This document shows positions 2-14,387 of a stretch of 64,000 nt of DNA, in pieces. The position numbers were made by a program, and so were the translations under genes. This DNA is from an uncultured cyanobacterium (lineage in GTDB: Bacteria; Cyanobacteriota; Cyanobacteriia; PCC-6307; Cyanobiaceae), in the NCBI GenBank assembly GCA_903823115.1, contig CAIJRN010000053.1, positions 1 through 64,000 of the forward strand, read 5' to 3'. A model generated the notes under the pieces. The model did no database searches. It was given only the letters and a program-made list of their open reading frames with translations, and was not told the origin of the DNA. Numbering within the stretch: the first letter of the stretch is position 1; each line of letters opens with the position of its first letter.

Positions 2-289
2 GAAGCGGAGGAGCAGGGGATCACCCAGGCGAATGTGGCGGCCAGGCTGGCGGAGGCGAAGGCCAATCCGAAGCTGGCGGAGCGGCGCCGTTTGCTGGGG
101 GTGGAGGGCAACCTCGGCAGTCAGCTGGGTCTGCCGGATGATTTTGTGGTCAAGGTGATCAGCGCCGTGGGCAATTACGGCGAGATCTACCGCCGCAACG
201 TCGGAGAGGCCTCGCCCCTGAACATTTCCCGTGGCCCCAATCGCCTCTGGAAGGAGGGCGGCCTGCTGATTGCGCCGCCGTTCCGATGA
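2..289 (+). CDS. aapJ: Amino-acid ABC transporter substrate-binding protein, C-terminal part (AapJ-like)
   Basis: This is the last 95 codons of a gene that starts left of the window; the frame is open from base 2 to the stop. The fragment ends with a segment (roughly VGNYGEIYRRNVG, then ISRGPNRLW and GLLIAPPFR) that I recognise as the C-terminus of the periplasmic binding protein of general L-amino-acid ABC transporters (AapJ/BztA family). It would bind polar amino acids outside the inner membrane and deliver them to the two permeases encoded next. Its stop overlaps the start of the first permease by four bases (ATGA), so the genes are an operon. The N-terminal lobe and signal peptide lie outside the window, so ligand specificity cannot be judged. 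Confidence 0.85.
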   Translation, partial: EAEEQGITQANVAARLAEAKANPKLAERRRLLGVEGNLGSQLGLPDDFVVKVISAVGNYGEIYRRNVGEASPLNISRGPNRLWKEGGLLIAPPFR

Positions 290-1260
290 ACGGCACACCC
301 TGGTGGCGCGATCGCCGCGTGCTGCCCTGGCTGCTGCAGGCGGGGGTGGGTCTGGCGGTGCTGGTGGTGGTGGCGTGGCTGATGACCAACCTGGTGCGCA
401 ATCTCAGCGCCGCCGGCTTGCTGCTCAGCTGGCGCTGGCTGGGTCAGCCGGCGGGGTTTGATCTCTCCGAAACGCTGCTCCCCTTCAACGCCTCGATGTC
501 CTATGGCCGGGCCCTGCTGGCGGGCCTGCTCAACACCCTGCGGGTGATCGTCTTCGCCCTGGTGGGCTCCAGTCTGCTGGGCCTGCTGGTGGGCATGGCC
601 GCCTTCAGTCGCAACGGCCTGCTGCGGGGTCTGGCCCGGGTCTACGTCGAGCTGGTGCGCAACGTGCCGTTGCTGCTGCAACTGCTCTTCTGGTATTTCG
701 TCGTCTTTCTGGCCCTGCCCGATGGTGCCGCCGCCCTGGGCTGGCCGGCGTTGGTGTTGGCCAAATCCGGGCTCTACATCGCCGGTTTCGCCGATGGCCG
801 CTGGCAGCTGCCCCAGTTGCTGGCCAGCGGCTGGCAGGCCCCCGTGCATCTGTCGGTCGAGTTCGCGGCGCTGCTCACCGGCCTGATCACCTACATCGGC
901 GCCTTCATCGCCGAGGTCGTGCGCGGCGGCATCGCTTCGGTGCCAGCGGGCCAGTGGGAGGCCGCCAGCTCCCTGGGCCTGCATGGGGCCGCGATCCTGC
1001 GCCACATCGTCTTGCCCCAGGCCCTGCGGGTGATCGTGCCGGGCCTCACCAACCAGTACATCAGCCTGGCCAAGGCGTCGTCCCTGGCCCTCGCCTGCGG
1101 CTTCACCGACCTCTATTCCGTGGCTGAAACCACCCTCAACCAGACCGGTCGGGCGGTGGAGGTGGTGCTGGTGCTGCTGGCGGCCTACCTGGCCATCGAT
1201 CTGTTGATCTCCGCCGCCATGAATGGCCTCAACCGGCTCGTCCAGGTGCGGGAGCGCTGA
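286..1260 (+). CDS. aapQ: Amino-acid ABC transporter permease (AapQ-like)
   Basis: Inner-membrane permease of a polar amino-acid ABC importer, 324 residues. It opens with a long hydrophobic helix (about residues 17-40), then the extended periplasmic insert and the HisM-type permease core. The EAA loop that contacts the ATPase is visible near residues 220-240 (QWEAASSLGL). Length and layout fit AapQ/BztB, the larger-loop permease of general amino-acid transporters. The start overlaps the binding-protein gene and the stop overlaps the next ATG by one base (TGATG), indicating translational coupling. Which amino acids are carried cannot be read from this sequence; the name follows the operon order J-Q-M-P. 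Confidence 0.9.
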   Translation: MNGTPWWRDRRVLPWLLQAGVGLAVLVVVAWLMTNLVRNLSAAGLLLSWRWLGQPAGFDLSETLLPFNASMSYGRALLAGLLNTLRVIVFALVGSSLLGLLVGMAAFSRNGLLRGLARVYVELVRNVPLLLQLLFWYFVVFLALPDGAAALGWPALVLAKSGLYIAGFADGRWQLPQLLASGWQAPVHLSVEFAALLTGLITYIGAFIAEVVRGGIASVPAGQWEAASSLGLHGAAILRHIVLPQALRVIVPGLTNQYISLAKASSLALACGFTDLYSVAETTLNQTGRAVEVVLVLLAAYLAIDLLISAAMNGLNRLVQVRER

Positions 1261-2522
1261 TGAGGAAGCGCTCAGCCCCCTCGCCGATAGCGTTCGCCGC
1301 TGCTGCAGCCTCGCCGCTGAAGCGGCTGCAGCGGCAGCTGGCCCCCAGTGCCGCCGACGCCCTGTTGAGCCTCGGACTGGTGGCCCTGATTCTCTGGGCC
1401 GCCTTGCAGCTGCTGGGCTGGGCCATGGGCCGGGCCGACTGGGCGGTGGTCCAGCTCAACAGCATGCTGCTGCTGGTGGGTCGCTATCCCCTGGCCGAGC
1501 AATGGCGCCTCTGGTTGCTGGCCTTGCTGCTGGCACTCCAGGCGGGCCTCAGCTGGGGCCTGTTGCGGGCCTGGCCCCGGGCCGATCGCCGTGAGCAGGC
1601 TCGCCTCTGGCCCCGCCACGATCGCATCGCCGGCCTGTTGCTGGCGCTGCTCGCCCTGCTGCTGCCGTTCGCTCTGCACCTGGCTGGCCCCTTGCAGTGG
1701 CGCTGGTGGCTGCTGGCTGCCGTGCTGCTGGCCGGGCGCTGGGCGGCGGGGCGCTGGGGGCAACAGCTGCCGCGGCGGGCCCTGAAGCTGGTCGCGGTCC
1801 TCTGGCCGCTGCTCTATCTGCTGGGGTTCTGGTTGATCGGCGGCGGCCTCGGCCTGGCTGCGGTCTCTCCCGGTGACTGGGGCGGCCTGCTGCTCACCCT
1901 GCTGATGGCCAGCTTCGCCATGGCCCTGAGCTTTCCGCTCGGCGTGCTGCTGGCCCTCGGTCGCCGCAGCAGCCTGCCCTTGCTGCGCTGGGGCTCGGTG
2001 GCCTACATCGAATTCATCCGGGGTGCGCCCCTGATCACCCTGTTGTTCGTCGGGCAGAACATCCTCGGCTTCCTGCTCCCCGGTGGCGCTTCCCCCGATC
2101 GCATCTGGCGTGCCGCCTGGGTGCTCACCCTGTTTGCCGCCGCCTATCTGGCCGAGGCGGTGCGCTCCGGTCTGGCGGCTGTGCCGCCCGGCCAGCTGGA
2201 GGCGGCCCGATCCCTGGGGCTCAGCCAGCCCCAGTCGATGGTCCTGGTCGTGATTCCCCAGGCGCTGCGGGTGGCCCTGCCCGCCATGGTGGGACAGTTC
2301 ATTGCCCTGCTGCAGGACACCACCCTGCTGTCGCTGATCGGCCTGCTCGATCTGCTGGGCACAGCCCGGGGCATCATGGCCAACCCCGAGTTCCTGGGTC
2401 ACAGCAGTGAGTTGTATCTGGTGCTGGCCGTTCTCTACTGGGGCTGCTGTGCCTCCCTGGGGCTCGGCAGCCGGGCCCTGGAGCGTCGCCTTGATCCCCG
2501 CAGCGTCGCCAGCCGCCGCTGA
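1260..2522 (+). CDS. aapM: Amino-acid ABC transporter permease (AapM-like)
   Basis: Second inner-membrane permease of the same importer, 420 residues, longer than its partner because of an N-terminal extension with several hydrophobic helices before the conserved core. The core has the HisM-type permease signature, including the FIRGAPLITLLFV segment and the EAA loop (QLEAARSLGL) around residues 315-325, which docks on the ATPase. The large size with extra N-terminal helices is usual for AapM/BztC. It is the third gene of the operon and would pair with the upstream permease to form the heterodimeric pore. A 72-base gap separates it from the ATPase start chosen here. Confidence 0.9.
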   Translation: MRKRSAPSPIAFAAAAASPLKRLQRQLAPSAADALLSLGLVALILWAALQLLGWAMGRADWAVVQLNSMLLLVGRYPLAEQWRLWLLALLLALQAGLSWGLLRAWPRADRREQARLWPRHDRIAGLLLALLALLLPFALHLAGPLQWRWWLLAAVLLAGRWAAGRWGQQLPRRALKLVAVLWPLLYLLGFWLIGGGLGLAAVSPGDWGGLLLTLLMASFAMALSFPLGVLLALGRRSSLPLLRWGSVAYIEFIRGAPLITLLFVGQNILGFLLPGGASPDRIWRAAWVLTLFAAAYLAEAVRSGLAAVPPGQLEAARSLGLSQPQSMVLVVIPQALRVALPAMVGQFIALLQDTTLLSLIGLLDLLGTARGIMANPEFLGHSSELYLVLAVLYWGCCASLGLGSRALERRLDPRSVASRR

Positions 2523-2594
2523 ACTCCCGGGCGCGACGGTCTGATCCTGATCCGTCCTCACCCCTTGCGTTCGCTTCCTGTTCCCTTTTCAGCC

Positions 2595-3365
2595 ATGGCC
2601 GCGCCGATGAACCCGCCCAGCCCCTGCCGCAGCGACGTGATGATCCAGGCCGAAGCCGTGGAAAAGTGGTATCCCAACGGCTTTCAGGCCCTGCGCGGCG
2701 CCAGCCTGACGGTGAATCGCGGTGAAGTGGTGGTGATCATGGGCCCATCGGGTTCGGGCAAGAGCACCTTCATCCGCACCTTCAATGCTCTGGAGGATTT
2801 CCAGAAGGGCAGCATCACGGTCGATGGCATCGCCCTCTCCAACGATGTCAGGAATATCGATGCGATCCGCCGCGAGGTGGGCATGGTGTTCCAGCAGTTC
2901 AACCTGTTTCCCCATCTCACCGTGCTTGAGAACCTCACCCTGGCGCCGGTGCTGGTGCGCAAGCGCCCGCGGGCCGAGGTGGAGCTTCAGGCCCGCGCCT
3001 TGCTGGAGCGCGTCGGCATCGCCGAGCAGGCCGAGAAGTTTCCCGGCCAGCTCTCCGGCGGCCAGCAGCAACGGGTGGCGATCGCCCGGGCGCTGTGCAT
3101 GGAGCCGCGCGTGCTGCTGTTCGATGAGCCCACCAGCTCCCTGGATCCCGAGATGGTGCGGGAAGTGCTCGATGTGATCCAGGCCCTCGCCGCCGATGAC
3201 ATCACCATGGTGGTGGTGACCCATGAGGTGCGCTTTGCCCGCCAGGTGGCCCATCGGGTGGTGCTGATGGATCAGGGGGAGGTGGTGGAGGAGGCGGAGC
3301 CGGAAACCTTCTTCACGGCGCCGCGCCACGAGCGCACCCAACGCTTCCTGGAGCAGATCCTTTGA
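2595..3365 (+). CDS. aapP: Amino-acid ABC transporter ATP-binding protein (AapP-like)
   Basis: Cytoplasmic ATPase that powers the amino-acid importer. Walker A (GPSGSGKST), Q-loop (VFQQFNLFPH), ABC signature (LSGGQQQR), Walker B (VLLFDEPTSSLD) and the switch histidine (VVVTHE) are all intact, and the order and wording match the polar-amino-acid (GlnQ/AapP) subfamily. I start at ATG 2595 (256 aa). ATG 2640, which begins MIQAEAVEKWY and matches family N-termini directly, is an equally good start (241 aa); a TTG at 2565 is less likely. It closes the transporter part of the operon, and its stop overlaps the next start (TTGATGATG), so the aldolase that follows is probably co-translated. Confidence 0.92.
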   Translation: MAAPMNPPSPCRSDVMIQAEAVEKWYPNGFQALRGASLTVNRGEVVVIMGPSGSGKSTFIRTFNALEDFQKGSITVDGIALSNDVRNIDAIRREVGMVFQQFNLFPHLTVLENLTLAPVLVRKRPRAEVELQARALLERVGIAEQAEKFPGQLSGGQQQRVAIARALCMEPRVLLFDEPTSSLDPEMVREVLDVIQALAADDITMVVVTHEVRFARQVAHRVVLMDQGEVVEEAEPETFFTAPRHERTQRFLEQIL

Positions 3366-4165
3366 TGATGGTCGACACAACTGCCAACCCGAACGCCACA
3401 CCGGCCAGTCTGCAGCGCTTCCGGGCGCGCCTGGCCGCCGGCGAGTCGCTGCTGGGACCGGTGCTCAGCCTGGCCAGTGCGCCGGTGGCGTCCCTGTTGG
3501 CGGCCAGTGGCTTCGACTGGCTCTGGATCGATCTCGAACATGGCGCCATCAGTCTCGAGAGCGCCCAGCAGATGATCTGGGCCAGCCAGGGCACGGCTGC
3601 GGTGCCCCTGGTGCGCGTGCCCTGGCACGAGCCCTGGCTGGTCAAACCGCTGCTCGATGCCGGCGCCATGGGGGTGATCACGCCGATGGTGGAGAGTGCG
3701 GAGCAGGCCGCCACGGCCGTGGCGGCCCTGCGCTATCCGCCCGCCGGGATCCGCGGCTATGCCCCCACCCTGGCGCCGGCCCGCTGGGGGCTGTCGATGG
3801 CCGACTATGCGGCGGCGGCGGATCAGGCTCTGCTGGCGATCGTGCAGATCGAAACGGCTGCGGCCGTGGAGCGCATCGAGGAGATCGTGGCGGTGCCGGG
3901 GCTGGATCTGGTGTTTGTGGGCCTCTATGACCTCTCAGGCTCCCTGGGACTGCTGGCTCAGGTGGAGCACCCGCTGGTGGAGGCGGCGGCCCAGCGGGTG
4001 CTGGATGCGGCCCAGCGGGCCGGTGTGGCGGCGGGCACGATCGCCCTGGATCCGGCCACGAGGCGCCGCCGGCTGGAGCAGGGTTTTCGCTTTGTGGCGG
4101 TCGCCACCGATGGCTCGCTGCTGACGGGGGCCGCCAGGCAGGTGCTGGCGGAATTGGGGCGCTGA
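3365..4165 (+). CDS. HpcH/HpaI aldolase family protein
   Basis: Predicted class II (metal-dependent) aldolase of the HpcH/HpaI family, which cleaves or forms 2-keto-3-deoxy sugar acids and related 4-hydroxy-2-oxoacids to pyruvate plus an aldehyde. The family core is visible: FDWLWIDLEHG near residue 52, VPLVRVPWHEPWLVKPLLDAGAMG near 85 to 107, the GIRGYAP segment, and VQIETAAAVERIEEIVAVPGLD with the metal-ligand glutamate near 163. Length (about 266 aa) is typical. The start overlaps the stop of the amino-acid ABC ATPase (TTG 3362, ATG 3365 and ATG 3368 are all possible). That coupling to an amino-acid importer is unusual and hints that the aldolase acts on a catabolite of the imported compound; the true substrate is not predictable. 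Confidence 0.85.
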   Translation: MMVDTTANPNATPASLQRFRARLAAGESLLGPVLSLASAPVASLLAASGFDWLWIDLEHGAISLESAQQMIWASQGTAAVPLVRVPWHEPWLVKPLLDAGAMGVITPMVESAEQAATAVAALRYPPAGIRGYAPTLAPARWGLSMADYAAAADQALLAIVQIETAAAVERIEEIVAVPGLDLVFVGLYDLSGSLGLLAQVEHPLVEAAAQRVLDAAQRAGVAAGTIALDPATRRRRLEQGFRFVAVATDGSLLTGAARQVLAELGR

Positions 4166-4480: not shown

Positions 4481-5176
4481 TCAGGCGATGGCGGCTTGCA
4501 TCAGCTCCAGGCCATGCAGGCCTTCATAGAGGAGATAGGCGGCAAACAGGATCGCCAGCACGCCCACCAGCGCTTCGGCCCGGTGCTGCAGCCAGTCGTT
4601 GAGTTTTTCGATCGGTTCGCGGATCGTGCCGGACGTGGCGATCCACACCAGGGGCGGCAACAGCAGCAGTGAGCCGGCCATCAAAGCGAAGACGCTGCTC
4701 ACCTCCAGGTCGGCCGACAGGCCCGGGTGGTTGATCAGCAGCAGCCGCGCCTCCTTGAGGTAGAAGACCAGGTTTTCCGGCGTCAGCAGGGCACCGGCGG
4801 CGCCGATCGCCACCAGCAGCCAGGTGTCCAGCTCCGGCAGCTTGTTCATCAGGCGCAGGGCCATGCCCTCCTCGCCGATCGTGGCCTGGGGGGTGAGCTG
4901 GTAAAGGCCAAGGGCCAGCAGGCCGCCGGCGCCGAGCAGGTCGATCAGCACCTGATCGCGCTCGCCATGGGCCAGGCTGATCGGAAAGGAGCTGCCCAGC
5001 AGCATCAGCAGCGCCACCGCCAGCAGATTGGCCAGGCTCCAGCCGAGCACGTAGGCAAAGGAGCGCCGCAGCGGTGCCCGGCCCAGCAACAGCAGGGTGA
5101 CAACGCCGATGTGCAGCGGACTGAAGGCGATGCCGATGCCGAACAACGACGACTGGGTCAGCAGGCTTGGGCTCAT
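4481..5176 (-). CDS. GAP-family (Sap/DUF2910) inner-membrane protein
   Basis: A 231-residue integral membrane protein with about six hydrophobic segments. The opening (LFGIGIAFSPLHIGVVTLLLL, then a membrane-turn LGRAPLRRSFAYVLGW) resembles the GAP/Sap (sulfolipid-1-addressing-like, DUF2910) family within the LysE-type transporter fold, whose members are thought to move small metabolites or lipids across the membrane. A short charged loop (LAHGERDQVL) follows the second helix. It stands alone, convergent with the aldolase operon and divergent from the symporter fusion. No experimentally defined substrate can be assigned. Alternative: any LysE-superfamily exporter. Confidence 0.7.
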   Translation of the reverse strand: MSPSLLTQSSLFGIGIAFSPLHIGVVTLLLLGRAPLRRSFAYVLGWSLANLLAVALLMLLGSSFPISLAHGERDQVLIDLLGAGGLLALGLYQLTPQATIGEEGMALRLMNKLPELDTWLLVAIGAAGALLTPENLVFYLKEARLLLINHPGLSADLEVSSVFALMAGSLLLLPPLVWIATSGTIREPIEKLNDWLQHRAEALVGVLAILFAAYLLYEGLHGLELMQAAIA

Positions 5177-5310: not shown

Positions 5311-7509
5311 ATGCCCAGGACCTTGTCTCTCTGGCCCCGCCAGATCGGCAACCAGTGCCTGCTGCTGCTGGTGGCCGGCGTGCTGGTGGGCCTGCTCACC
5401 CCGACGGCGGCCCTGGCTCTCAAGCCCCTGGGCCTGGCCTTCCTGCAGGCCTCCCAGATCGTGGTGATGCCGTTCCTGATCTGCGAGCTGATCGTCGGTT
5501 TCGGCGGCCTGGGCAGCGGTTCGCTGCGACGCCTGCTGCGCGGTGGCGTCGTGGTGCTGCTGGGCCTGTGGCTGCTGGGCGGACTGCTGGTTGTGCTGCT
5601 GCCCCAGCTGCTGCCACCGCTCACCTATTCCGGCTTCTTCCACGCCGGCCTGTTCCAGCAGCCCCAGGGCACCGATCTGCTGCGCACCTATCTGCCCGAC
5701 AACATCTTCGGCGCCCTGGCTGCCGACAACTTCCCGGCCGTGGTGCTGTTCAGCGCTGTCCTGGGCATCCTGCTGCAGGGCATGGAGAACCGCCAGGAGC
5801 TGCTGCGGGTGCTGGAGGTGGTGCGCCAGCTGTTCGGCCGCCTCAATGGCCTGATGGCCAGGGCCGTGCCCTACGGCATCTTTGCCCTCAGTGCCGTCAC
5901 CTTCGCCACGCTCGACTGGGCCCAGCTGGTCAAGATCCAGGCTTTCCTGTTTTTATGTCTGATCGCCTTCGTGGTGCTGAGCGTGCTGCTCAGTGGCCTG
6001 GTGCTGGCGCTCACACCCCTCTCCGCCGCAGGCCTCTGGCGGATCGTGCGCGGCCCTCTGGCGCTCACCGCCAGCAGCGCCAATCTGCTGATTGCTCTGC
6101 CGCTCCTGGTCCAGAGCCTGCGCCAGGAGCTGTTGCTCGTTCCCGGCCAGGCCGAACGGGCCGATGATCTCGCCGCTGAGCTGGCGCCACTGATCTCCCT
6201 GGGCTACTCCCTGCCCACCCTCGGCCAGGTGGCGACCCTGATCTTTCTGCCCTTCGCCGCCTGGTACGTCGATCGGCCGATGGGCATGGGGGCGACGGCC
6301 CAGATGCTGCTGACGGCCATTCCGGCCTCGGTGGCCGGCGTCAAGTCGGTGGTGCGCCAGGAGCTGTTGCGCCAGGAGCTGCCGCTGCAGCTGCTCAAGC
6401 TGATCTATCTCAATGGCGACTGGCTCTATCGCTTCGAGAAGGTGCTGTCGCTGGAGGGGCTGGTGCTGCTGGCCCTGCTCGTCTGCTTCGGTTCGGCCGG
6501 GAGCCTGCGGCTGCGGCCCCTGCGCCTGATCGGGGCCTCCCTGCTGGCGGTTGCCCTGGCTCTCGGCCTGGGCGCGGCGGCCCGGACCAGCCTCAGCATC
6601 AGTCTCAAGCACAGCTACCGCAACGATCGTCGCCTGCTGGCGCTGCAGCCGTTGCGGCCCGGCCCTGCCCCCCAGCCGCTGCTGAGCCTGCGCAGTGAGC
6701 CGGTGACCCTGGCGGCGATCCGCCGCCGCGGCGTGTTGCGGCTGGGGGTGCGCCGCGATGGCATGCCCTGGGCCTTTCGCAATGGTGCTGGCCGCCTGGT
6801 GGGTTTTGACATCGACCTGGCCGAAGGGCTCGCCCGCAGCCTGGGGGTGCGGCTGCAGATCGTTGAGCGGCCCCTTGCCGAGCTCGATATTCTGCTGGAT
6901 CGCCGCTCTGTCGATCTGGCCCTGGGCGGTATTCAGTCGTCGCCGCAGCGGGCGATTCGCTATCACGTCAGCCTGGGCTATCAGTCCGTGCATCTGGCCC
7001 TGGTGGTGCCCGACGGCAAGGTCGGCCTGATCCAGAACCTGGCCTCCCAGCCCCTGGGCCAGTCCATGGGCCAGCCCCTGGGCAGGCCGCTGCGCATCGC
7101 CGTCGCCGATCCCCAGCTGATCACGGCCAGCCTCAGTGAGCGGATCGCGGCGGAACTGGGCCGTTCTCAGGGGCAGCTGGAGCTGGTGCCGATGGCCAGC
7201 AAGCAGAACTTCTTCAGCCCAACCGGCCAGCGCAGCTTTGATGCGCTGTTGACGACGGCGGAAGGCGGTTCGGCCTGGTCGGTGCTGTATCCCCGCACCA
7301 CCCTGCTGGCCAGCTTCGGCGACCGGCTCAGCGGTGAGCTGGTGATGCTGGTGGCGGGCGATGACCCTGATCTCAACGCCTATCTCGATGCCTGGATCAG
7401 CCAGGAGCGGGCTCGCGGCCTGATGGGCTCCCTGTTCAAGCACTGGATTGATCTCGATGCCGATCCCAACCGAGGTGAGCGGCTGGACAAGCTCCAGAGC
7501 AGCCTCTGA
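5311..7509 (+). CDS. Dicarboxylate/amino-acid:cation symporter fused to a periplasmic solute-binding domain
   Basis: A two-part membrane protein of about 732 residues. Residues 1 to about 435 look like a DAACS/SDF (glutamate-type) symporter: repeated hydrophobic helices, a serine-rich re-entrant segment (LTASSANLLIALP near 250) and the SLGYSLPTLGQVAT region near 297. Residues about 465 to 725 form a SBP_bac_3 amino-acid-binding lobe (RGVLRLGVRRDGMPWAF, GFDIDLAEGLARSLGV, DLALGGIQSSPQRA). The NMDGT cation-site motif of classical DAACS transporters is not evident and is replaced by a divergent stretch, so coupling ion or substrate may differ. Start is ATG 5311, with GTG 5308 directly before it. 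It stands alone in its transcription unit. Confidence 0.82.
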   Translation: MPRTLSLWPRQIGNQCLLLLVAGVLVGLLTPTAALALKPLGLAFLQASQIVVMPFLICELIVGFGGLGSGSLRRLLRGGVVVLLGLWLLGGLLVVLLPQLLPPLTYSGFFHAGLFQQPQGTDLLRTYLPDNIFGALAADNFPAVVLFSAVLGILLQGMENRQELLRVLEVVRQLFGRLNGLMARAVPYGIFALSAVTFATLDWAQLVKIQAFLFLCLIAFVVLSVLLSGLVLALTPLSAAGLWRIVRGPLALTASSANLLIALPLLVQSLRQELLLVPGQAERADDLAAELAPLISLGYSLPTLGQVATLIFLPFAAWYVDRPMGMGATAQMLLTAIPASVAGVKSVVRQELLRQELPLQLLKLIYLNGDWLYRFEKVLSLEGLVLLALLVCFGSAGSLRLRPLRLIGASLLAVALALGLGAAARTSLSISLKHSYRNDRRLLALQPLRPGPAPQPLLSLRSEPVTLAAIRRRGVLRLGVRRDGMPWAFRNGAGRLVGFDIDLAEGLARSLGVRLQIVERPLAELDILLDRRSVDLALGGIQSSPQRAIRYHVSLGYQSVHLALVVPDGKVGLIQNLASQPLGQSMGQPLGRPLRIAVADPQLITASLSERIAAELGRSQGQLELVPMASKQNFFSPTGQRSFDALLTTAEGGSAWSVLYPRTTLLASFGDRLSGELVMLVAGDDPDLNAYLDAWISQERARGLMGSLFKHWIDLDADPNRGERLDKLQSSL

Positions 7510-7556: not shown

Positions 7557-9128
7557 TCAGCGCTGGGGCAAGGTCGCCCAGTCGGCCGCATTCAGCTCAG
7601 GAAACAGTCCATCTTCACGGCGCACCGCCGCCAGCCAGGCCTCGGACAGGGGCGTGCCGTTCTCGATGGCATCGATCAGGCGCCAGAAGCGATCGAGATG
7701 GCGATGGATGCGCTCGCGGGCCAGCTCGGTGGTGGTGCCGGCCCGCAGGATGAAGCTCCAGTCGGAGCTCTGGGCCAGCAGCAACTCGCGTCCCGCCTGG
7801 GTGAGCCAGTCCCGTTGCTCGCTGCTGCCCACACCCCGGTTCACCCGGCGCACCATGGCCCGGGAGGCCCGCTGCCATTCGGCCACCACCCAGGAGTTGG
7901 TGTCGTTGAGCCAGTAGTCGTGGTAGCCGCCCTGGCCCCAGCTGGAGGGGGAGGGCTGGCAGACCTGCAGGTTCTGGCCCACCGACAACACATCGCGCAG
8001 ATGGGTGAAATTCACCCCCGACTGGGGGCCCAGCCGGAACAGCTCGCCCAGGAAGCGGGGGCCTTCAAACCACCAGTGGCCGAACAGCTCGGCATCAAAG
8101 GGCGCCACCAGCAGGGGCGGCCGATCGATCGTCTTGCCCAGGGCCTCCAGCTGGCGATGGCGGCCTTTGAGGTAGTCGGCGGCGTGCTGAGCCAGCCGCT
8201 CCCGGGCCCGCTCCGGTTCGTAGCCCTGTTTGGCCTCCAGCGGGCAGCCCTGGGCGGTGACGCGGTGCAGCTTCAGGCCCAGGGGACGGCGACTGCGGAT
8301 GCCCAGCTCACTGAGGCGCTCTTCGCTCAGATCCCAGCCGAGATCGCGGTGGAACTCCCGGTAGGCGCCATCGCCGGGATAGCCCTGGCTGGCACTCCAC
8401 ACCGGCAGGGTGGATTCGCTGTCGCGGCCGAAGAAGGCCACCCCGCCCGGCGAGCAGATCGGGGCGTAGACGCCGTAGCGGGGGCGCGGCATGGCGTGCA
8501 GCAGGCCATGGCCATCGAGCAGGGTGTAGCGCAGGCCGCAGCTGGCCAGCTGCTGGTCGAGGTCCTCGTAGTAGGCGCATTCCGGCAGCCAGATGCCGAG
8601 CGGTCGTTCCCCCAGCAGGCGCTGATGTTCGCGGATGGCGGTGAGCAGCTGGGCCCGCACCGACTCGGGCGAATCGCGCAGCAGCGGCAGATAGCCGTGG
8701 GTGGCGCCGCAGGTGATCAGATCGAGGACACCGTCCTGCTGCAGGCGGCGGAAGCGGCTCAGCAGCCGGCCGCCGCAATTGAGAAACTGCTGGCGGATCT
8801 CCACCAGGCGCCTCTCGAGATCAAGGGCGGCTCCGGCCAGCTCCTTCGGGGCGTCCGTGATCAGCGCCAGCCGCAGCTCCAGCCAGGCGACGAAGCGCGC
8901 ATTCAGGCCCCGATCGCTCAGCAGCGACAACAGGGTCGGCGAGAGGCCCATGGTGAGCCTGGGCCGCTGGCGCGGGTCGGCGGCGGCCGCCTCCAGCATC
9001 TCCAGCAGGGGCAGATAGCACTCCTGCAGGGCCTGGAAGTACCAGTCCTCCTCAAGGGAGCCCGCCTCTCCCGAGCGCACATAGGGGAGATGGGCGTGAA
9101 GCACGAGGGCCAGATCGCCTGCCGCCAT
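7557..9128 (-). CDS. GH57 1,4-alpha-glucan branching enzyme-like protein (DUF1957)
   Basis: Glycoside hydrolase family 57 protein, 523 residues, the usual size for DUF1957-type branching enzymes that introduce alpha-1,6 branches into glycogen. The N-terminal block LALVLHAHLPYVR contains the conserved HxH of the (beta/alpha)7 barrel. The putative nucleophile is Glu183 in WLPECAYYED and the acid/base is Asp345 in PFDAELFGHWWFEGP; both sit where they do in characterised thermophilic GH57 branching enzymes. The C-terminal helical domain (residues about 400 to 520) includes VNRGVGSSEQRDWL and SSDWSFI. It is a single gene divergent from the NYN-domain gene. A different GH57 transferase activity (for example 4-alpha-glucanotransferase) cannot be excluded. 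Confidence 0.85.
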   Translation of the reverse strand: MAAGDLALVLHAHLPYVRSGEAGSLEEDWYFQALQECYLPLLEMLEAAAADPRQRPRLTMGLSPTLLSLLSDRGLNARFVAWLELRLALITDAPKELAGAALDLERRLVEIRQQFLNCGGRLLSRFRRLQQDGVLDLITCGATHGYLPLLRDSPESVRAQLLTAIREHQRLLGERPLGIWLPECAYYEDLDQQLASCGLRYTLLDGHGLLHAMPRPRYGVYAPICSPGGVAFFGRDSESTLPVWSASQGYPGDGAYREFHRDLGWDLSEERLSELGIRSRRPLGLKLHRVTAQGCPLEAKQGYEPERARERLAQHAADYLKGRHRQLEALGKTIDRPPLLVAPFDAELFGHWWFEGPRFLGELFRLGPQSGVNFTHLRDVLSVGQNLQVCQPSPSSWGQGGYHDYWLNDTNSWVVAEWQRASRAMVRRVNRGVGSSEQRDWLTQAGRELLLAQSSDWSFILRAGTTTELARERIHRHLDRFWRLIDAIENGTPLSEAWLAAVRREDGLFPELNAADWATLPQR

Positions 9129-11893: not shown

Positions 11894-12023
11894 GGGCGGA
11901 CAACGTTTCTAGGGTTCCGGCCTCGCCCATCTGCGGATGTGGCGAGGTGTCTGGTCCGAGAGAAACGCGCCGGAGCCTTCGGGCTGCGGCGGCACGGAGG
12001 GACAAAAGCCCGGGAGACCGCCC
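11894..12023 (+). promoter_or_regulatory. Guanidine-I (ykkC) riboswitch
   Basis: The highly conserved blocks of the ykkC/guanidine-I aptamer occur in order: CTAGGGTTCCG (11909-11919), CTGGTCCGAGAG (11951-11962), and CACGG followed by GGGACAAAAGCCCGGGAGA (11993-12017). The P1 stem can form between GGGCGG (11894-11899) and CCGCCC (12018-12023). A P2 hairpin pairs CCTCGCC (11921-11927) with GGCGAGG (11941-11947). Binding of free guanidinium is established for this class. The aptamer ends 25 bases before the guanidine hydrolase ATG; the spacer is pyrimidine-rich with no obvious Shine-Dalgarno sequence or T-run, so whether control is at translation or termination is not clear. Confidence 0.95.
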
Positions 12024-12048
12024 CATTCACCCCTCCCCCTCCGTTGCC

Positions 12049-13230
12049 ATGAGCGAAGCATCCGGCGCCTTTGAGAGTCGCCACCCCTCCGAGGGCCAGG
12101 CGGCCCTGGAAAAGGAGCGCTCCCTGCCGTTGACGGGCTGGCAGCAGGAGGTGGACCAGGGCCTTCGCTACGGCCTGGAGGCGGCCGAGAGCATCGTCGA
12201 TCGCCGCATCTCCACCTTCTCGCGCGGTGAGCTGCCCCACTACGCGGGCATCAACACCTTCATGAAGGCCCCGTACATCGAAGACGTCAACCGCGTCGGC
12301 GAGTTCGATGTGGCGATTGTCGGTGTGCCCCACGACAGCGGCACCACCTACCGACCTGGCACCCGCTTCGGTCCCCAGGGGATTCGCCGCATCTCCGCCC
12401 TGTACACCCCCTACAACTACGAGATGGGAGTCGATCTGCGGGAGCAGATCAAGCTCTGCGATGTCGGTGACATCTTCACGATCCCCGCCAACAACGAGAA
12501 GAGTTTCGACCAGATCTCCAAAGGCATCGCCCATGTCTTCGCCAGCGGTGCCTTTCCGATCATCCTCGGCGGCGACCACTCGATCGGTTTTCCGACGGTG
12601 CGCGGTATCTGCCGCCATCTCGGCGACAAGAAAATCGGCATCATTCACTTTGATCGCCATGTCGACACCCAGGAGATCGACCTCGACGAGCGCATGCACA
12701 CCTGCCCCTGGTTCCATGCCACCAACATGGCCAATGCCCCGGCCGAAAATCTGGTGCAGCTGGGGATCGGTGGTTGGCAGGTGCCGCGCGAGGGGGTCAA
12801 GGTCTGCCGCGAGCGGGGGACCAACGTGCTCACCGTCACCGACATCTGCGAGATGGGCCTGAAGGCGGCCGCCCAGTTCGCGATCGATCGCGCCACCGAT
12901 GGCACCGATTGCGTCTACATCTCCTTCGACATCGACTGCATCGATGCCGGCTTCGTGCCCGGCACCGGCTGGCCCGAGCCTGGCGGCCTGCTGCCGCGCG
13001 AAGCCTTGAAACTGCTGGAGCTGATCGTGCGCAACGTGCCGGTCTGCGGCCTGGAAATCGTCGAGGTGTCTCCTCCCTACGACGTCAGCGACATGACCTC
13101 GCTGATGGCGACCCGGGTGATCTGCGACACCATGGCTCACCTGGTGGTGAGCGGCCAGCTGCCCCGCAAGCAGACCCCGGCCTGGCTGCACCAGGAGTGC
13201 AACATGCACGTGGATCAGAAGTGGAGATAG
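12049..13230 (+). CDS. gdmH: Ni-dependent guanidine hydrolase (arginase/agmatinase family)
   Basis: Ureohydrolase-fold enzyme of 393 residues expected to hydrolyse guanidine to urea and ammonia. It matches the Synechocystis Sll1077 type, long annotated as agmatinase and later shown to be a nickel-dependent guanidine hydrolase. Metal ligands are in GGDHS (near residue 175), HFDRHVDTQ (near 200 to 208, with Arg where agmatinases have Ala) and SFDIDC (near 292). A long N-terminal extension of about 85 residues precedes the fold, as in that subgroup. The start at ATG 12049 lies just behind the riboswitch; upstream in-frame codons would run through the aptamer. It heads an operon with hypA and hypB, which fits a nickel enzyme. 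Agmatinase activity is the main alternative. Confidence 0.93.
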   Translation: MSEASGAFESRHPSEGQAALEKERSLPLTGWQQEVDQGLRYGLEAAESIVDRRISTFSRGELPHYAGINTFMKAPYIEDVNRVGEFDVAIVGVPHDSGTTYRPGTRFGPQGIRRISALYTPYNYEMGVDLREQIKLCDVGDIFTIPANNEKSFDQISKGIAHVFASGAFPIILGGDHSIGFPTVRGICRHLGDKKIGIIHFDRHVDTQEIDLDERMHTCPWFHATNMANAPAENLVQLGIGGWQVPREGVKVCRERGTNVLTVTDICEMGLKAAAQFAIDRATDGTDCVYISFDIDCIDAGFVPGTGWPEPGGLLPREALKLLELIVRNVPVCGLEIVEVSPPYDVSDMTSLMATRVICDTMAHLVVSGQLPRKQTPAWLHQECNMHVDQKWR

Positions 13231-13233
13231 GGC

Positions 13234-13641
13234 ATGCACGAAGTCGACATGACCAAGTGCCTGCTGCTGTCGATGAACCAGTGGAAGCAGCAGCACGCCC
13301 CAACCATCCCCAGCGTGCAGCAGGTGCACCTGCAGGTGGGCACCTTCACCTGCGTTGAGCCCGAGCAGCTGGTGTTCACCTGGCGCGTTGCCGTGCAGGC
13401 CAGCTGGCTGGCCGGTGCCGAGCTGGTGATCGAAGCCGTGCCGCTGGTGGGTCGCTGTCTGCAGTGCAACGCCACCTACAACCCGAGCCCTGATTCGGCC
13501 TACCGCTCCCCCTGCTGCGATCACCCGATGGAGGAGATCGTCAGCGGCCGCGAATTGCGGATCCGCTCGGTGGAGTACACCCTGCCCGAATCGCCCCCAG
13601 CCAGTCTCCAGCCGTCCCTTGCTGTCGCCCCCGCGGCCTGA
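13234..13641 (+). CDS. hypA: Nickel insertion protein HypA
   Basis: Nickel chaperone of 135 residues. It begins with MHEVD, the conserved N-terminal Met-His-Glu that binds nickel in HypA/HybF. The zinc-binding part has CLQC (near residue 75) and then a CC pair (SPCCDHP near 90) instead of a clear second CxxC, a mild deviation. The family C-terminal [12 protein letters not shown] is present, followed by an alanine/proline tail of about 20 residues. It starts three bases after the guanidine hydrolase stop. No hydrogenase structural genes are in the window, so the likely client is the hydrolase, as in the Synechocystis sll1077-sll1079 cluster. Confidence 0.9.
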
Positions 13642-13646
13642 ATGCC

Positions 13647-14387
13647 ATGCACATGCCCCTCGAAGACACCCTGGGACTCAATCTCCTGGCCGCCAATCAG
13701 CACCAGGCCCAGCACAATCGCCAGCATTTCGACGCCTGGCGCCTGCTCTGTCTCAACGTGATGAGCAGCCCCGGCGCTGGTAAGACCTCCCTGCTGGAGC
13801 GCAGCTTGGCGGCCCTGGCCCCCGAGTTCGCCATGGCGGTGCTGGAGGGCGACATGACCACCCTGCTCGACGCCGAGCGCCTGGAGGCGGTGGGGGTGCC
13901 GGTGGTGCCGATCACCACCGGTCGTGCCTGTCATCTCGATGCGGCGATGGTCAGCGGCGGCCTGAAGATCCTGCGCCAGCGCCTCGATCCAGCCAGCCTC
14001 GATCTGCTCTGGGTCGAGAACGTCGGCAACCTGGTTTGCCCAGCTGAGTTCGAGATCGGCGAGCATCGCAAGGTGGCGCTGCTGAGTGTCACCGAAGGCG
14101 ACGACAAACCGCTCAAGTACCCGGTGATGTTCCGCGAGGCGGACTGCGTGCTGATCACCAAGGTGGACTTGCTGCCCTATCTGCCGGTCCAGGTGGAGCG
14201 GATCGAGGCCCACATCCAGCAGGTGAATCCCCGCTGCGCCGTGTTCCAGGTGTCGGCCAGCAGCGGCGTTGGCCTGGAGGCCTGGCACGACTGGCTGCGC
14301 CGGCAACGGGCTGCGCTCGCTTCAGCTGCAGCCCCGGCTGTGGCAGACCCGGCTGTGTCAGCCCCCGAGCCGGTGCTGGTGCCATGA
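13647..14387 (+). CDS. hypB: Hydrogenase/guanidine hydrolase nickel-incorporation GTPase HypB
   Basis: Cytoplasmic SIMIBI-class GTPase, 246 residues, that drives nickel transfer to a client enzyme. The P-loop is [12 protein letters not shown] (near residue 40), the metal-binding GRACHLDA and ENVGNLVCP motifs (near 92 and 127) are intact, and the guanine-specificity segment reads TKVDLLPYL. It lacks the N-terminal CxxCGC or His-rich nickel-storage region found in some HypB proteins. The C-terminus ends in an alanine/proline tail. It lies five bases behind hypA and overlaps the next gene by four bases (ATGA). With hypA it probably loads nickel into the guanidine hydrolase. Confidence 0.92.

Follow-up and report, generated by a model that had tools for sequence, protein, structure and literature searches.

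A conserved fusion of an SDF carrier domain with an SBP_bac_3 domain in which the published cation signatures are missing

In an uncultured freshwater cyanobacterium, one gene joins a membrane domain of the SDF (sodium:dicarboxylate symporter) type to a solute-binding domain of the SBP_bac_3 type, which raises the question of whether the join is genuine and whether the product is the binding-protein-assisted symporter proposed by the initial annotation. The window (the whole 64,000-nucleotide stretch of DNA analyzed) is the beginning of contig C53, and the gene is a single open reading frame running from the ATG at 5311 to the TGA at 7509, with residues numbered from that ATG and the start backed by an equivalent ATG in close relatives.

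5311..7509, + strand, fused carrier-SBP gene, 732 aa (open reading frame; start supported by relatives)

Both domains were detected in this one polypeptide, as annotated: Pfam matched SDF (E 2.1e-31, 109.8 bits against a cut-off of 27.9) and SBP_bac_3 (E 2.3e-17, 63.4 bits against a cut-off of 26.4) at non-overlapping positions, and returned nothing else from the 732 residues. The NCBIfam matches were weak and were to DctA/GltP and amino-acid SBPs. Neither Pfam nor NCBIfam found a kinase, cyclase, or ion-channel output domain, and Pfam found no DctM, TctA, or GltS membrane part. The gene stands alone in the window: the upstream neighbor, an SfLAP-type gene (4481-5176), is on the opposite strand, and the GH57 gene downstream (7557-9128) is convergent; promoter and terminator scans found none. 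Its product is the sole SDF protein in this 3.4 Mb cyanobacterial genome.

About 40 full-length relatives share the SDF-SBP architecture, and the same join recurs at 25-93% identity in independent assemblies from three phylum-level samples; a scan of species genomes yielded 12 relatives with this join at 54-93% identity, and four distant members also exceed both Pfam cut-offs. The gene occurs in 21 of 201 genomes of the window's cyanobacterial family, to which the full-length matches in the cyanobacterial phylum sample were confined, and whole-genome searches revealed a second, distant cyanobacterial clade (∼31% identity). The fused gene was also found in six of 398 genomes of Pseudomonadota, the phylum of Legionella, in one order of that phylum (14 of 197 genomes, several with two or three copies), and in five of 198 genomes of a further phylum whose record title, Desulfosudis, is an uncertain label; a Chloroflexota-titled phylum sample had none (0/151). 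Legionella brunensis has one fused protein, and a Halioglobus pacificus plasmid encodes one of 724 aa. Two record titles deserve caution: that of L005 (CALPNT020000019.1), Bifidobacterium breve, is probably wrong, its gene being 83% identical to the window's protein, and that of L070 (Terriglobia) looks wrong, its phylum sample having overlapped that of Legionella. Two copies have an apparently broken frame, possibly from sequencing errors or decay: L156 and L013, the latter frameshifted alone among 12 close loci.

The tree of the fused family, a quick run with the careful search unfinished and several long branches, put the window into a cyanobacterial clade of 16 rows that has full support. 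The seven rows of the second cyanobacterial clade fall among those of gammaproteobacteria and others, so two separate lineages of fused proteins exist in cyanobacteria. Comparison of the window with six near relatives gave dN/dS values of 0.08-0.20 in the carrier half; the SBP half gave 0.20-0.28. Both halves are under purifying selection, and thus neither is decaying.

The carrier half comprises the following features.

5353..6336, + strand, SDF domain (Pfam, profile positions 4-329 of 387; profile-profile probability 99.6)
6067..6102, + strand, HP1-equivalent, residues 253-264, TASSANLLIALP (alignment; P264 invariant, 41/41)
6214..6228, + strand, NMDGT position, here PTLGQ, residues 302-306 (alignments; family pattern P-x-hydrophobic-G-[K/Q/R])
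6301..6360, + strand, HP2-equivalent hairpin, approximately residues 331-350 (inferred from alignment with six ordinary SDF proteins only)
6430..6432, + strand, R374, a basic residue of TM8 (all 41 fused proteins have R or K)
6523..6582, + strand, ninth, extra TM helix, approximately residues 405-424 (family-mean hydropathy and charge)

Profile-profile alignment with ordinary cyanobacterial SDF proteins extended over residues 8-365 with a probability of 99.6 and set P302-Q306 opposite the NMDGT-type motif, in agreement with the joint alignment. The absence of NMDGT remarked on in the initial annotation therefore holds, and it extends well past this protein: the motif is present in 12 of 12 ordinary cyanobacterial SDF carriers versus none of 41 fused proteins, whose TM7 pattern is P (40/41), a variable and mostly hydrophobic residue, G (41/41), and K/Q/R (38/41). 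By alignment, the altered cation motif is a trait of the whole fused family. PMC12668577 gives the Na+ signature as N310 with D/E312 and the H+ signature as L311 with N405 (GltPh numbering). At the aligned columns, N was found in 0/41 and D/E in 0/41 of the fused proteins; L at the 311 column was likewise found in 0/41, the 405 column being not reliably alignable. The TM8 substrate motif D..xD..RT..N was present in none of the 41 fused proteins versus all 12 ordinary ones, and in most fused members the HP2 equivalent appears from the alignment to fall ∼8 residues short of that in ordinary SDF carriers. An additional helix (∼405-424), following a mostly positive loop, is indicated by family-mean hydropathy and charge. 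SDF carriers with eight TM helices have a cytoplasmic C-terminus; with a ninth helix, the SBP domain would thus lie outside the membrane. Structure prediction, suggested earlier for both domains, succeeded for the SBP domain and not for the full-length protein, whose AlphaFold2 model from 12 close relatives reached a pLDDT of 46; GltPh was among the fold matches of that low-quality model.

The features of the binding half are as follows.

6673..7506, + strand, C-terminal SBP domain, residues 455-732 modelled (pLDDT 90.9; Pfam match 6736-7449)
6949..6951, + strand, R547, at the site of the Arg that binds carboxylate in SBPs (R kept by 9/11 proteins of the window's clade and by 17/41 fused proteins in all)
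7255..7278, + strand, T649-A-E651-G-G-S-A-W656, signature of lobe 2 in the fused proteins, located where the canonical amine-binding Asp would lie

A model of residues 455-732 by themselves, built with 48 sequences, shows an SBP with both lobes complete (pLDDT 90.9). The closest folds were ancestral amino-acid-binding protein/cyclohexadienyl dehydratase structures, including AncCDT-1 (Z ∼24), with BvgS (4q0c) also among the matches, and the best PDB matches of the domain were cyclohexadienyl dehydratases. A reading of the domain as a dehydratase enzyme was set aside, as E651, on our reading of the PDB sequence alignment, does not line up with the dehydratase acid. The amine-binding Asp is present in 35 of 37 free SBPs versus none of the 41 fused proteins, which carry T/S/G/A/P in its place (T or S in the window's clade). 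Within that clade, the aromatic residue at 484 has become G, S/T at 542 has become Q, and the Q-x-G-S/T of 599-602 has been lost relative to the 37 free SBPs; R547 is the sole canonical pocket contact kept, mainly in this clade. New near-invariant positions characterize the fused family, namely P486, N491, G498, D500, D535, D644, W656 (40/41), P661 (41/41), W695, and W712. The loss of canonical contacts together with these new near-invariants argues that the pocket was rewritten rather than simply decayed. The earlier concern that the lobe might be degenerate was not borne out, given the complete fold and strict new invariants, and, with the canonical SBP_bac_3 pocket rewritten throughout the fused family, the label "amino-acid-binding lobe" is open to doubt. 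Ligand binding by the domain is not assured, the canonical amino-acid contacts being absent.

The same partners also occur as separate genes. Genome G342 has an SBP_bac_3 gene preceding a separate SDF gene with a 33-base gap, and a search of 273 cyanobacterial genomes with this SDF protein gave two further pairs: SBP and SDF genes with a 4-base overlap in G257, and in G170 an Asp/Glu-type racemase gene followed by an SBP gene (1-base overlap) and then an SDF gene 56 bases downstream. These loci are L205:1120-3513, L208:3284-5562, and L209:2235-5562. In each of the three unfused SDF proteins, NMDGT is replaced by [GAC]-R-x-G. As read from the sequences, the SBP-SDF partnership exists in fused and in neighboring or partly overlapping forms, with the Na+ motif replaced each time. 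The fused and unfused forms are likely to be of independent origin because their SDF proteins are only 13-21% identical in the joint alignment.

Substrate-hinting neighbors were found in gammaproteobacteria and in one other cyanobacterial family, none in the window's clade. At seven gammaproteobacterial loci (L143, L185, L186, L190, L191, L192, and L194) from two well-separated tree clades, the fused gene has a BshA-type gene as its immediate upstream neighbor, oriented in the same direction; the five of these neighbors that were scanned all exceeded the family cut-off. The family name, N-acetylglucosaminyl L-malate synthase, gives L-malate as the substrate. BshC was not found in 11 genomes, including the seven with a BshA neighbor, whereas controls were detected, so bacillithiol synthesis by these BshA-type neighbors is not supported. 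Also in gammaproteobacteria, the gene directly downstream of the fused gene encodes PanP (aspartate decarboxylase) at one locus and is of the ketopantoate-reductase type at two. Together with the racemase of G170, these neighbors give a weak hint that the substrate is a C4-dicarboxylate, an acidic amino acid, or a related carboxylate. Consecutive genes of the window itself (286-4165) encode an amino-acid-type ABC permease pair, an ATPase, and an HpcH/HpaI aldolase; no SBP gene was seen with these ABC genes, although the contig starts at window base 1 and one may be cut off. The permeases and aldolase were rejected as a substrate clue because the opposite-strand gene at 4481-5176 separates them from the fused gene, and the downstream GH57 gene, being convergent, was uninformative. 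Further along (11947-14387), inspection by eye showed HypA-like and HypB-like ORFs after one that looks like an agmatinase/ureohydrolase, an arrangement resembling the nickel-dependent guanidine hydrolase cluster.

A binding-protein-assisted carrier is the best reading of a conserved, selected fusion combined with separate neighboring SBP-SDF genes. We consider it somewhat probable that the fused protein acts, in a single chain, as a binding-protein-dependent secondary transporter that uses the SLC1/DAACS (SDF) elevator fold. On the outer side of the cytoplasmic membrane, the tethered SBP would capture a small solute bearing a carboxylate, close on it, and pass it to the transport domain, whose elevator movement would carry it across; with specificity residing in the SBP, the carrier's own substrate and ion sites could have been relaxed. 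Transport is probably Na+-independent, either H+-coupled by a new route or uncoupled, because the polar or basic residues of TM7 and TM8 (Q/K/R306 and R/K374) may stand in for the lost cations. From the evidence above we infer capture by the SBP, hand-over, Na+-independence, and a carboxylate substrate as the predicted function. The assisted-carrier part of the proposed "binding-protein-assisted symporter" is accordingly upheld by the conservation and selection of the fusion and by the unfused pairs. The "symporter" part is not: no member has either the Na+ or the H+ signature, and ion coupling should therefore not be presumed. A fuller scenario is tentative and rather doubtful as a whole, namely that the binding protein took over substrate recognition and, with the shortened HP2, part of the outer gate, freeing the SLC1 fold from Na+ coupling, with polar or positive TM7/TM8 residues replacing the cations and the fused and two-gene forms arising separately.

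The chief rivals to binding-protein-dependent transport are a regulatory sensor and a transport-dead receptor. As a sensor (external gain control or transceptor), the SBP domain would switch the carrier on or off and its ligand would not be handed over. SBP_bac_3 domains are common sensors, for example in histidine kinases (PMC9602780), BvgS is among the fold matches, and the changed pocket means that SBP ligand and carrier substrate could differ; however, a cytoplasmic output domain is lacking, and hand-over better fits the loss of the ion motif that accompanies SBP association in fused and unfused forms alike, which leaves the sensor unlikely. Still less likely is a receptor or scaffold whose SDF part only holds the SBP domain at the membrane. 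It would account for the shortened HP2 equivalent and for the disappearance of every testable canonical coupling and substrate signature from the SDF part, but the carrier half is the more constrained of the two (dN/dS 0.08-0.20), P302, G305, and P264 are near-invariant at transport-domain motif sites, and an entire SDF domain is more than simple anchoring would require. The clear SDF homology could also suggest a DAACS carrier of the usual Na+-coupled kind, its SBP domain being an inert passenger, a very improbable case given that the Na+ signature is absent in 41/41 and that the SBP domain is conserved over large distances and under selection. The junction error that the initial annotation had allowed for, or any other assembly, sequencing, or gene-calling artefact, is excluded by the occurrence of the join in dozens of independent assemblies, some of them single-contig chromosomes, and has nothing in its favor beyond the frameshifted L013 copy, one of 12 close loci.

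Binding-protein-dependent transport by the fused protein can be set against known systems. The likeness to TRAP systems drawn in the initial annotation is apt, as TRAP and TTT systems are SBP-dependent, take up carboxylates by secondary transport, and have an elevator mechanism shown or proposed; their membrane parts (DctQM/TctAB) and SBPs (DctP/TAXI/TctC) nevertheless belong to Pfam families of which the fused protein contains none. A closer precedent is TAXI-GltS (BP0403/GltS, 2025), an SBP-dependent carrier encoded by adjacent genes and by rare fusions (PMC12344293). There too, a secondary and probably elevator-type carrier is paired with an SBP, in adjacent coupled genes as well as single chains, but the families are GltS (ESS) and TAXI rather than SDF and SBP_bac_3, the SBP comes first in the fusions whereas here the carrier does, and GltS is described as a Na+ symporter whereas the fused SDF carrier lacks the Na+ signature. 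By analogy, the best reading is that the fused SDF-SBP protein works most like TAXI-GltS, in parallel to TRAP. With the DAACS/SLC1 carriers (GltPh, GltTk, DctA, and EAATs), the fused proteins share SDF homology over TM1-TM7, and nearly the whole profile in other members, but they lack NMDGT and the TM8 D..xD..RT motif, have a shortened HP2 equivalent, and add TM9 and the SBP domain; given homology with failed coupling and substrate signatures, a "DAACS symporter" should not be assumed. The best PDB sequence match of the membrane part was 9bgz (Anc-Int). The uncoupled intermediate-clade glutamate transporters represented by Anc-Int similarly have an SDF domain without the full Na+/H+ signature, but are described in Firmicutes, and the available part of PMC12668577 does not mention an SBP domain. 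The SBP half shares its two-lobed fold (Z ∼24) with SBP_bac_3 amino-acid SBPs and cyclohexadienyl dehydratase, and differs in its replaced ligand contacts, its tether to a carrier, and the position of E651 off the dehydratase acid.

No description of an SDF-SBP_bac_3 fusion was found in the open-access literature, although the architecture may already be listed, without study, in InterPro, UniProt, or TCDB. The SLC1/DAACS family, to which the human glutamate transporters belong, serves as a model for the elevator fold. An SBP is tied to such a secondary carrier physically in the fused family and genetically in the unfused pairs of three genomes, and the fused family points to an undescribed kind of binding-protein-dependent transporter. 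PMC12344293 raises the question of why so few secondary carriers are linked to SBPs, proposes the elevator mechanism as a possible common requirement, and notes that further SBP-dependent classes would test it. A family-wide SDF-SBP system that exists both as fusions and as gene pairs, and that has lost both published coupling signatures, would be such a class, and the fused family offers natural sequences for the study of how an SLC1 carrier may work without its Na+ sites.
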